Below are positions 58,198 through 62,486 of a stretch of DNA of 64,000 nt, piece after piece. Below the pieces are notes generated by a model. That model was not told the DNA's origin, ran no database searches, and saw only the letters and a program-made list of their open reading frames with translations. The DNA comes from Arthrobacter sp. zg-Y769 (lineage in GTDB: Bacteria; Actinomycetota; Actinomycetes; Actinomycetales; Micrococcaceae). Within the stretch, counting starts at the first letter, position 1. Each line of letters begins with the position of its first letter. The stretch covers positions 310,001-374,000 of the forward strand of contig NZ_JAJJOE010000008.1 of NCBI RefSeq assembly GCF_020907405.1. The letters are read 5' to 3'. Position numbers and translations under genes: made by a program.

Positions 58198-58518
58198 ATG
58201 GGCACAGACCAGTACCATGAGCCGCCTTCCGAACTTCCCGCAGAAACCCGGACGTTTGCGCGGATGTGCGCCAGCCTGGCAGAGGAAGCCGAGGCCATCG
58301 GCTGGTACGTCCAGCGGACGGCGGTGGAGCCCGACGCCGAGTCCCGGGCGATCATGCTTGATTCGCTCGGCGAGGAATTCAAGCACTTCAGCATGGAACT
58401 CGAGTTCCTGCTGCGCCGCACTCCCCTCTGGCGGGAAATCGCCTACGGCATCCTCTTCTCCGAGGGAGACATAGTCCGGCACGGCGAAGCCTCGGAGGCC
58501 GAAGCAACCGGCGACTAG
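58198..58518 (+). CDS. EncFtn-like ferritin-family protein
   Basis: 106 residues, two antiparallel helices. The metal-site pattern of encapsulated ferritin (EncFtn) is kept: Glu30 in AEEAEAIGWYVQR, with Trp36 and Tyr37, and the ExxH pair Glu60-His63 in GEEFKHFSMELEFLLRRTPLW-like sequence. EncFtn forms a ferroxidase at a dimer interface and usually works inside an encapsulin shell. Here no C-terminal loading peptide is seen (end GEASEAEATGD) and no encapsulin gene lies nearby. An AGGAG site precedes the ATG, and the V-ATPase operon starts 48 nt after its stop, probably on the same transcript. Confidence 0.75.
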   Translation: MGTDQYHEPPSELPAETRTFARMCASLAEEAEAIGWYVQRTAVEPDAESRAIMLDSLGEEFKHFSMELEFLLRRTPLWREIAYGILFSEGDIVRHGEASEAEATGD

Positions 58519-58565
58519 TCCCCCGGCAACCCCGCAACCACTCCTCCGCTCAGGGAGGTGCCGCC

Positions 58566-59009
58566 ATGGCACGCAACAGCCTGCTGGACCGTTTCCGACC
58601 CGTCGGTGCGCCCGGCCCCGCCGGGCCGGCCGGTGTTCCGGCCACTGATGACGAAGGAACGGCCGCCGAGCTGATCCCCGTCTTCGAGGCCCTCGAGCCC
58701 ACGATCGATGAGGGCACCGGGCTCACCGAATCAGCCGCCGCCCAGGCGCAGCAGACCGTCGCCGCCGCCCGCAGGCAGGCCGCCGCCCTTGTGGAGCAGG
58801 CCCGGATGGACAGTGCGGCGGTACGGACCGAAGCCGCGGCGCGGGTCTCCGCTGAAGCCGCGCAGGAGGACGAGCAGCTGCTCGCCGACGCCAGGGAAGA
58901 GGCACAGGCGCTCCGGAGCCGCGGCGAGTCCCGGGTACCGGAACTCGCATCCGCCATTGTGGCGGATCTGGTTCAGGACCTGCTGGGCCGGGGAACGGAC
59001 ACCGGCTGA
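58566..59009 (+). CDS. V-type ATPase peripheral stalk subunit (G/H-like)
   Basis: 147 residues. A Pro/Gly-rich start is followed by a long Ala/Glu/Arg coiled coil (TVAAARRQAAALVEQARMDS through EEAQALRSRGE), as in subunit G/H of bacterial and archaeal V/A-ATPases, which pairs with subunit E in the peripheral stalk. GGGAGG stands 8 nt before the ATG. Its last base overlaps the start of the next gene. Identification rests on coiled-coil form and operon position. Confidence 0.78.
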   Translation: MARNSLLDRFRPVGAPGPAGPAGVPATDDEGTAAELIPVFEALEPTIDEGTGLTESAAAQAQQTVAAARRQAAALVEQARMDSAAVRTEAAARVSAEAAQEDEQLLADAREEAQALRSRGESRVPELASAIVADLVQDLLGRGTDTG

Positions 59010-59968
59010 TGAGGGCGGATTGGGTGGCGGCCTCGGTCCGGGCGCGGTCCATGGCGCAGCGGCGGGTGGGCGCCGGGATGTGCCGGGACCTGTCCGCCCT
59101 GCCGAGCCTGCCCGCCGCCGTCGAGGCGCTCAACGAGTCGGTGTACTCCGGCGACCTGGCCGGCGCCCGGACATTGGGCTCCGCACAGCAGGCCACCCGG
59201 AGTGCCGTGCTCTGGCAGCTGCGTGTCCTGGCCGGGTGGCTCCCGGCCGGCCAGGACACCCAGCTGGTGCGGGCGGCCGCCGCACGGTTCGAAGCGGACA
59301 ACATCCTTACCCTCGCCGCCGCACTCCGGGCGGATACGGGGGCGAATACAGGCACGGAACCCGGCACAGCTGCCCCGTTAGGATCTGCCTTCGACCTCGG
59401 TGGGTTGGCCACGGCCTGGCCGCGGCTGCGCACCGCGGACTCCCCCGAAATGCTGCAGGCAATGCTGGCCGCGTCGCCTTGGGGTGACCCCGGCCCGGCT
59501 TCGGCGCTCCCCGACATGCTCACCGCCGTCTGGCTCCGCCGGTTGGCCGCCGCGGCCCCGGCCGCGCGCCCCTGGGCTGTTGCCGGGGCCGTGCTGCTGG
59601 CTGCCCGTTTGCTGCTGGTGAACGGCGTCCGCCCGACGGACCGCCTCGTATCCCTGCTCCGTCCACTGATCGGCACCGGATGGACGGAGGCCGCCTCGCT
59701 GCCGGAGTTGACCTCGGCCCTCAGCCCGGGCGCCGGCCGGATCCTGGCCGAGGTGCAGGAGCCGCATGAACTGTGGCAGGCGGAGGCCCGCCTTGCCGCC
59801 CAGGTGGAAACGGACGGCTTCGGCCTGCTGCGGGCCGGGCTGCCCGGCCCGGACGTGGTGCTCGGCGCCATGGCGGTCCTGGCTGCCGACGCGTGGCGGG
59901 TCCGCGCTGCACTGGCCGCGGCAGCCGCAGGCACCGGGAGAAGCGAGGTGCTCGATGCCGTGGCGTGA
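59009..59968 (+). CDS. V-type ATPase subunit C (AC39/d-like)
   Basis: 319 residues, helical. Sequence is divergent, but length, all-alpha character (ADNILTLAAALRADTG; MLTAVWLRRLAAAAPAARPW) and position between the stalk and membrane subunits fit the V_ATPase_C/AC39 family, the funnel that couples the central shaft to the rotor ring. The EADNILTLAAALRA stretch matches the family motif in which an Asn-rich helix follows the acidic residues. It overlaps the subunit I gene by 14 bp. Confidence 0.7.
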   Translation: MRADWVAASVRARSMAQRRVGAGMCRDLSALPSLPAAVEALNESVYSGDLAGARTLGSAQQATRSAVLWQLRVLAGWLPAGQDTQLVRAAAARFEADNILTLAAALRADTGANTGTEPGTAAPLGSAFDLGGLATAWPRLRTADSPEMLQAMLAASPWGDPGPASALPDMLTAVWLRRLAAAAPAARPWAVAGAVLLAARLLLVNGVRPTDRLVSLLRPLIGTGWTEAASLPELTSALSPGAGRILAEVQEPHELWQAEARLAAQVETDGFGLLRAGLPGPDVVLGAMAVLAADAWRVRAALAAAAAGTGRSEVLDAVA

Positions 59969-61280: not shown

Positions 61281-61732
61281 ATCCCTGGTTTGCCGTCCTT
61301 CCCCTGGCCCTGTTCCTTACCGTCCTGCTGGCCGGGGGCGCCCTGGCCCTGATGCGCCGACGCCGCCGGGCGGGCGTCCGCGCGCTGCTCGGGCTGAACG
61401 CCGTCCTCATGGCCGGAGCGCTGGCCCTGCTGGTCTCCGCCCTGAACGCAGCCCCGGCCACGGCGGGCGACGGCGGGGCTGCCGCCACCGCTGTCGCAGC
61501 GGCAACCGACGGCAGTGACAGCAGCGGTGCCGCGCTGATCGGCGCCGCGATCGCCGTCGCCGGGTCCTCCATCGGCGCGGCCATCGCCGTCGCCTACACC
61601 GGTTCGGCCGCCCTGGCGGCGATGAGTGAGCGGCCGGAAATCTTCGGACGGGCCATGGTGGTAGTGGGCCTGGCAGAGGGCATCGCCATTTACGGGTTGA
61701 TCATTTCCATCATCCTCATCGGCCAGGCATGA
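61277..61732 (+). CDS. V-type ATPase subunit K (proteolipid c ring)
   Basis: 151 residues, four helices. The second hairpin is a proper c subunit ([40 protein letters not shown]) with Glu134 as the ion-carrying carboxylate. The first hairpin ([36 protein letters not shown]) lacks a carboxylate and looks like a separate N-terminal addition joined by an Ala/Gly/Thr linker. One carboxylate per four-helix protomer is the eukaryotic-like pattern. No Na+-site signature is evident. The GTG start overlaps the I stop, and the stop overlaps subunit F (ATGA). Confidence 0.88.
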
Positions 61733-61962
61733 GCAGCCGGGAAGGAACCGTGGCCGCGCTGGGGAATCCTGCCCTGCTGGAGGGGTACCGGCTGGCGGGG
61801 GCAGAGCTCCACCCCGCCGCCGGAGCCGCCGACGTCCGGGCCGCCTGGGCGGGGCTGCCCGACTCGGTCTGCGTCGTCCTGCTCACGCCCGACGCCGCAG
61901 CGCACCTCAGCGACGAACTGGTCCATCCGGCGTCGCCCCTGACGGCGGTGCTGCCTTCATGA
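61729..61962 (+). CDS. V-type ATPase subunit F
   Basis: 77 residues, slightly shorter than the usual 100. It starts [20 protein letters not shown] and has [19 protein letters not shown], the typical subunit F pattern of a small Rossmann-like domain in the central shaft. Overlaps both neighbours by ATGA. The missing C-terminal helix may be a real shortening. Confidence 0.82.
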
Positions 61963-62486
61963 CCCGGCTGCCGCAGGGTGCGGAGGCGGCCCTGGACCCG
62001 GTGCGGCAGGCACTGAGGCGGGATGCCGAGACAGCCGCCGCCCGGTCCGAGGCTGACGCGCGGCAGCAGGCCGCCGACCTGCTGGGCAGGGCGCAGGCGG
62101 AGGCGGACGATATCCACCGCACCGCGCAGCGCGAAGGTGCCGAAGCCGCCCGGGCCGATGCCGCGGCTTCCTCCGCCCGTGCCCGCCGTCAGGCGCGCCG
62201 GACCGTCCTCGCCGAGCAGGAACACCTGCGGTCGCTCCTGGCCGCACAGGTCCAGGAGCAGGTCCGTGAAGTGCGGCGGGACCCGCGCTACCCGCAGATC
62301 CTGCGGCGGCTGACCGCGGAGGCGGACCGGATCCTCGGACCGATGGCGTCAGTGACCGAAAGCCACAAGGGGGGCGTGACCGGCACGGCCGGCTCGCGGC
62401 GGCTGGACCTGTCGCTGCCCACCCTGGCCGACCAGGCGCTGGAGGACCATTCCGGGGAGGTGCGGCGGCTATGGCACGACGGATGA
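61959..62486 (+). CDS. V-type ATPase subunit E
   Basis: 175 residues. An N-terminal coiled coil (AETAAARSEADARQQAADLL, GRAQAEADDIHRTAQREG) and a globular end (RDPRYPQILRRLTAEADRIL; LDLSLPTLADQALEDHSGEV) fit subunit E, the partner of the G/H subunit in the peripheral stalk. ATGA overlaps link it to F and A. Confidence 0.82.
   Translation: MTRLPQGAEAALDPVRQALRRDAETAAARSEADARQQAADLLGRAQAEADDIHRTAQREGAEAARADAAASSARARRQARRTVLAEQEHLRSLLAAQVQEQVREVRRDPRYPQILRRLTAEADRILGPMASVTESHKGGVTGTAGSRRLDLSLPTLADQALEDHSGEVRRLWHDG

Follow-up and report, generated by a model that had tools for sequence, protein, structure and literature searches.

A small ferritin-like gene of the EncFtn family lies directly in front of a nine-gene cluster for a V-type ATPase, on the same strand, in the 64,000-nucleotide (nt) stretch of Arthrobacter sp. 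zg-Y769 analyzed here (contig NZ_JAJJOE010000008.1, positions 310,001 to 374,000; hereafter the window). Judging from sequence comparisons, we hold with moderate confidence that its product is a cytosolic ferroxidase lacking both a shell and a targeting tail, which is likely co-transcribed with the pump but takes no part in its working. The link to the V-type ATPase is real and was seen only in the genus Arthrobacter. Two features of the window are central to this reading:

58198..58518, + strand: EncFtn-like protein of 106 residues without a targeting peptide (assigned by PF22277, the structures 5da5 and 3k6c and a comparison of tails)
58101..58129, + strand: promoter-like site TTGTGT-17-TAACGT, conserved in the gap; putative function

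The Pfam model PF22277 (EncFtn-like) matched the 106-residue protein with 65.2 bits at a cut-off of 27. In a search of solved structures, 5da5 (R. rubrum EncFtn) was found at 1.7e-12 over residues 4-97 without gaps, and 3k6c (N. europaea) at 1.8e-10. A profile of 50 sequences, made of the window protein and 49 relatives, gave 2.7e-17 and 4.7e-17, respectively. These E-values and the conservation of the protein across the genus rule out a chance match. Thus, the preliminary description, which had been drawn from the letters of the window, correctly placed an EncFtn-family protein (open reading frame 58198-58518, + strand) at the head of the V-type ATPase genes. It was also right about the metal residues: in the alignment to 5da5, E30, W36, Y37, E60 and H63 of the window protein correspond to E32, W38, Y39, E62 and H65 of R. 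rubrum EncFtn (offset 2), and E29, E32 and E59 are likewise kept. According to PMC5012862, the iron site of the R. rubrum protein is composed of Glu32, Glu62, His65 and Tyr39, and a second site of Glu31/Glu34. With the same offset these are E30, E60, H63, Y37, E29 and E32 of the window protein, all of which were aligned with the ferroxidase centre of 5da5. All 28 tail-less and all 49 encapsulin-linked relatives compared share the eight metal-site residues without exception. For this count 28 of the 31 loci without encapsulin were used; L123 (tail-like end SLDIGGLKG, no encapsulin nearby), L097 (truncated where its contig stops) and L125 (tail-less, but grouped with tagged rows by the tree) had been excluded beforehand. 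In the tail, tree and metal-residue comparisons, the first codons of locus L069, from the frameshifted genome G208, were translated in a wrong frame.

No gene for a family-1 encapsulin shell (PF04454) was found over the cut-off in the whole window genome, the best match (E 0.143, 12.2 bits) containing two internal stops, and the same was true for all 29 genomes of the genus. The window protein ends in EASEAEATGD, and an LGIGSL-type C-terminal targeting motif was not found. Both absences agree with the preliminary description. Its further statement that known EncFtn proteins act in shells and carry a loading peptide holds for the encapsulin-linked ones but was too broad, since relatives without a tail have been described as "Non-EncFtn" (PMC5012862) and "s-FLP" (PMC11202242). 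By its sequence, a product of 106 residues without a tail, the window protein is of this short kind.

Near relatives are of two kinds, having either an encapsulin neighbour and an LGIGSL-type tail or, with few exceptions, neither. In a sample of 197 genomes of the family Micrococcaceae, EncFtn was detected in 34 and encapsulin in 33. Outside the genus, 22 of 23 genomes with EncFtn also had encapsulin (one as a fragment); inside it, none of 11 did. The tails were read at 34 of 37 EncFtn places, those of G017, G030 and G038, which adjoin encapsulin by their coordinates, being left out. Eighteen of the 34 loci had encapsulin beside EncFtn and all 18 ended in LGIGSL; the other 16 had neither. The same division was seen in named relatives, 80 of 270 confirmed ones, for which encapsulin and V-ATPase were sought in flanking DNA, short on one side for some loci. 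Encapsulin was nearby in 49 of these 80 loci, and all 49 had an LGIGSL-type tail (38 by a strict pattern, 49 by a looser one). Such a tail was missing at 29 of the 31 loci without encapsulin, the other two being L123 and L097. The former (Skermania sp. ID1734, 10001-10384) showed no encapsulin in the 20 kb of DNA around its EncFtn gene. A tree with 95 rows united 33 of the 37 tail-less rows and one tagged row in a set whose SH-aLRT value of 89 is below the tool's star, and it required five label changes. The 98 columns of this tree cannot settle whether the tail was lost a single time. TIGR04535 was tried as a test of cargo status and rejected: the window protein scored 71.1 bits against a cut-off of 125, but four tagged, encapsulin-linked relatives also failed (82.5 to 86.7).

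It is highly improbable that the window protein is still shell cargo, either by entering an unrecognised shell or by co-assembling with tagged EncFtn in genomes that possess both kinds. Genomes of the latter sort exist, as G028, G098 and G115 of the family sample carry one copy of each kind, two of the three matching Paenarthrobacter contigs, and a 2024 review calls it unclear whether s-FLP are encapsulated (PMC11202242). The genus itself, however, yielded no PF04454 match and no tagged EncFtn, there being one EncFtn match per genome where the gene is present. A search for the family-2 shell (PF19307) gave no match in the 29 genomes either, though none of its controls matched.

The genus of the close relatives, which we term Arthrobacter sensu stricto, comprises e.g. 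A. citreus, A. koreensis, A. luteolus and A. gandavensis. EncFtn was present in 26 of its 29 genomes (one frameshifted, G208) and V-ATPase subunit A in 27. In all 24 genomes with both, EncFtn was located directly before the first ATPase gene on the same strand; a 25th genome with such a place, G211, has an EncFtn remnant before the V-ATPase. Across the mapped genomes the two genes are 8 to 168 nt apart. In the window the gap amounts to 47 nt (58519-58565); the preliminary description had given neighbourhood and strand correctly but the distance as 48 nt. Outside the genus, EncFtn was beside V-ATPase in none of the four genomes of the family sample with V-ATPase over the cut-off (G018, G052, G096, G192), three of which lacked EncFtn while G052 had it on another contig. 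A sample of 396 genomes of the phylum contained EncFtn in 72 (56 over the cut-off) and V-ATPase in 89, and the two shared a contig in 0 of the 41 genomes that, besides the window genome, had both; many EncFtn matches in this sample were weak and many assemblies fragmented. V-ATPase was near EncFtn in 11 of the 80 named loci, all of Arthrobacter, and in none of the remaining 69. Thus, recurrence of the linkage in relatives, on which the preliminary description had made its proposal depend, was found within the genus but not outside, where EncFtn has other neighbours. A common EncFtn partner at loci without encapsulin or V-ATPase was also considered and rejected, because the 20 named loci of this type revealed just one dehydrogenase-like neighbour cluster, in three loci. 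This search reported clusters occurring in at least three loci, and the Arthrobacter neighbours in A. gallicola and A. pullicola were set aside.

The pattern TTGTNN, 17 or 18 nt, TANNNT was found in all 29 genomes before EncFtn, or before V-ATPase where EncFtn is gone. It had 30 matches in 583,694 nt of mapped regions, the sole extra one in G080. In G058 and G197 the site is now situated before V-ATPase, while in G100 and G183, which have no V-ATPase, it precedes EncFtn. None of the 25 gaps scanned from EncFtn to the first ATPase gene contained another promoter-like match. A terminator between EncFtn and the stalk gene, named in the preliminary description as a feature that would speak against it, was not seen in the window in a scan limited to loops of 3-8. 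A site common to EncFtn and V-ATPase suggests a single transcription unit; the conserved site may well be a promoter, from which EncFtn is probably co-transcribed with the pump. These data also bear on the assumption that EncFtn, equipped with its own promoter, and the V-ATPase were joined once in the ancestor of the genus and have since remained neighbours by descent, with unshared regulation. The confinement of the link to the genus, the separate losses described below and the variable spacing fit this assumption, but the persistence of the site in G058 and G197 and the failure to find a second promoter or a terminator do not, and we consider it unlikely. A conserved leader RNA was rejected, as an inverted repeat in this region was present in just 8 of 29 genomes and missing in the window's own group. 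Rfam, applied to 57500-59000, gave two matches only, both far below gathering scores, and an IdeR/DtxR box had 0 matches in the window with up to 3 mismatches.

EncFtn and V-ATPase have been lost separately. EncFtn is kept in place without V-ATPase in G100 and G183, which match A. gallicola and A. pullicola; the next gene there encodes a DUF2809 protein that in other genomes lies just past the V-ATPase. Since G100 and G183 group with the V-ATPase-bearing G194 (100/99) in a tree of six neighbour proteins, a loss of V-ATPase is indicated. Conversely, V-ATPase is kept without intact EncFtn in G058 (gone), G197 (at most a trace) and G211, where a remnant of 29 residues (locus L155, about 9921-10004, MsrB strand) is accompanied by the upstream site and the V-ATPase cluster. 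EncFtn needs three losses on the six-protein tree. In G208 (L152; the same genome as L069) a frameshift is located near the EncFtn start; it may be an assembly error, and the genome was counted among the 26. Altogether, 24 of 29 genomes possess both, two EncFtn only and three V-ATPase only, which is not the pattern of a pump part inherited together with the pump.

One operon might couple the oxidation or sensing of iron to ion pumping, e.g. under acid or oxidative stress, EncFtn and V-ATPase thereby cooperating. The adjacency in 24 of 24 genomes and the common upstream site in 29 of 29 are in line with this idea. It is nevertheless quite unlikely in view of the two species with EncFtn but without V-ATPase, the three with the reverse, and the lack of any link outside the genus (0/4 in the family sample, 0/41 in the phylum sample, 0/69 named loci). 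The functional tie to the proton or ion pump proposed in the preliminary description is thus unsupported, each partner having been lost separately and tail-less relatives outside Arthrobacter having other neighbours. For the EncFtn gene, the median ratio of nonsynonymous to synonymous substitution rates (dN/dS) was 0.05 (178 pairs of 22 genes; median dS 1.1). Used were 22 of 25 extracted genes, with G208 and G211 excluded, and only pairs with dS between 0.1 and 2. Together with the unchanged eight metal-site residues of all 28 tail-less relatives compared, this low value makes it hard to believe that the fold has been kept for another role after loss of the ferroxidase function, even if the three losses in the genus could be read in that way.

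The intact metal site, the missing family-1 shell gene and the missing loading peptide make the free ferroxidase, one of the roles suggested in the preliminary description, the best reading. Recombinant R. rubrum EncFtn alone oxidised Fe(II) and showed neither peroxidase activity nor iron storage (PMC5012862), and assembly of the H. ochraceum EncFtn decamer is described as iron-dependent (PMC11202242). By analogy with these two proteins, the window protein would assemble, in dependence on iron, into a ten-subunit ring whose two-fold metal centres oxidise Fe(II) of the cytosol, the product not being stored by EncFtn itself. In Arthrobacter sensu stricto its gene would be the first of one transcription unit with the V-type ATPase, behind a conserved promoter just upstream, and the protein may serve iron or redox stress on its own. 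We infer the oligomer, the activity, the promoter nature of the upstream site, the co-transcription and the stress role.

Several points weigh against the free, co-transcribed ferroxidase. Lacking a storage shell, it would release Fe(III), and for its uptake there is only a candidate: G000:C16:176845, the sole protein of the window genome over the PF00210 cut-off, appears Dps-like by its sequence and might act as acceptor of the product. Tail-less EncFtn was also present in 15 further genomes; 12 of them were without PF04454 over the cut-off, but three do have encapsulin, one as a fragment only. The negative PF19307 search belongs here as well on account of its silent controls, as do the three losses, which mark EncFtn as dispensable in the genus. 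Finally, in 8 of 29 genomes (loci L039, L040, L041, L044, L045, L046, L141, L146) an inverted repeat of 15-18 bp with a loop of 29-33 nt is located in the gap from MsrB to EncFtn or the first ATPase gene, and its left arm includes the second hexamer of the upstream site. A run of 4-6 T in five of these repeats, and of 3 T in three, closes or follows the right arm. The repeat may terminate MsrB transcription, or may account for part of the conservation of the site.

The remaining genes of the region are all located on the same strand:

57085..57531, + strand: MsrB, conserved upstream neighbour, in 29/29 mapped regions (PF01641, 165 bits)
57549..58085, + strand: flavin reductase-like protein (PF01613, 92 bits, longer frame from 57393)
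58566..59009, + strand: coiled-coil protein, stalk-like, opening the V-ATPase cluster (assigned from its position; no Pfam match)
59009..59968, + strand: V-ATPase C/AC39-like subunit (PF01992, 20.4 bits, below the cut-off of 29)
59988..61280, + strand: V-ATPase subunit I (PF01496, 67.8 bits, scored on a longer frame from 59766)
61277..61732, + strand: V-ATPase subunit K, the rotor (PF00137, 59.6 bits)
61729..61962, + strand: protein of 77 residues in the place of subunit F (by position; no Pfam or NCBIfam match; conserved in the cluster of the genus)
61959..62486, + strand: V-ATPase subunit E-like protein (PF01991, 21 bits, below the cut-off of 24.2)
62471..64000, + strand: V-ATPase subunit A, leaving the window (NF003220, 604 bits, cut-off 470; whole gene 372471-374264 of the contig)

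From I to A, neighbouring genes share 4 to 16 bases, and beyond the window subunit A is followed by B (PF00006, 241 bits) and D (PF01813, 86.9 bits). The gene at 58566 matched models of the ATP synthase b-type and of V-ATPase E weakly, with scores far under the cut-off. Inspected by eye, subunit K (61277-61732) appears to be without the ion-site residues of sodium-pumping rotor rings, so that a proton pump seems likelier. Past the V-ATPase cluster, at 6516-12680 of locus L057, the same genome contains genes for a solute-binding protein, two permease-like proteins (by position) and a GH38 alpha-mannosidase, the first and the last being assigned by Pfam. Upstream, a same-strand gene for 165 residues at 56573 had no Pfam family at 0.01. 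The flavin reductase-like gene is kept in the window's group and absent from part of the genus; at locus L048 (G131) a gene for 256 residues (10426-11196), by eye methionine aminopeptidase-like, is inserted between it and EncFtn.

Among known proteins, the s-FLP/Non-EncFtn of N. europaea (NE0167, 3k6c) resembles the window protein in being short, in having no C-terminal targeting peptide and in belonging to the same fold family, and the profile alignment covers residues 1-92 without gaps. It differs in that W36 of the window protein aligns with Leu and in being the more distant sequence (1.8e-10); moreover, the V-ATPase neighbourhood is genus-wide in Arthrobacter. The R. rubrum encapsulin cargo Rru_A0973 (5da5; TIGR04535) shares the family, the full metal site and the ungapped alignment, but the window protein has neither its shell gene nor its targeting peptide. 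Encapsulin-linked EncFtn proteins of Micrococcaceae and Solirubrobacterales are 66 to 81% identical and agree in the metal residues; unlike the window protein, they have an LGIGSL-type tail, and 69 to 169 nt separate their genes from one for encapsulin.

In the literature searched, mostly non-subscription papers and partly judged by title, no work was found that joins EncFtn or encapsulin to V-ATPase genes; the preliminary description, too, had known of none. The V-ATPase link thus appears to be new, at least to us. It is conserved in the genus, bound to it and separable, and the kind of protein is already known. A shell-free EncFtn ring and a bacterial V-ATPase might together make up a co-regulated iron/proton module in Arthrobacter, in which, during acid or oxidative stress, Fe(II) is cleared by the ferroxidase and the pump expels the protons arising from iron oxidation and hydrolysis. 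We regard this as very doubtful. As 26 of 29 genomes of a culturable genus carry tail-less EncFtn (one frameshifted) and none of the 29 shows a family-1 shell, the question of encapsulation is directly testable, and thanks to the linkage a co-regulation of iron oxidation with a rotary pump can be tested in a simple way. If neither holds, Arthrobacter would still document clearly that a lineage of EncFtn has moved out of the shell.

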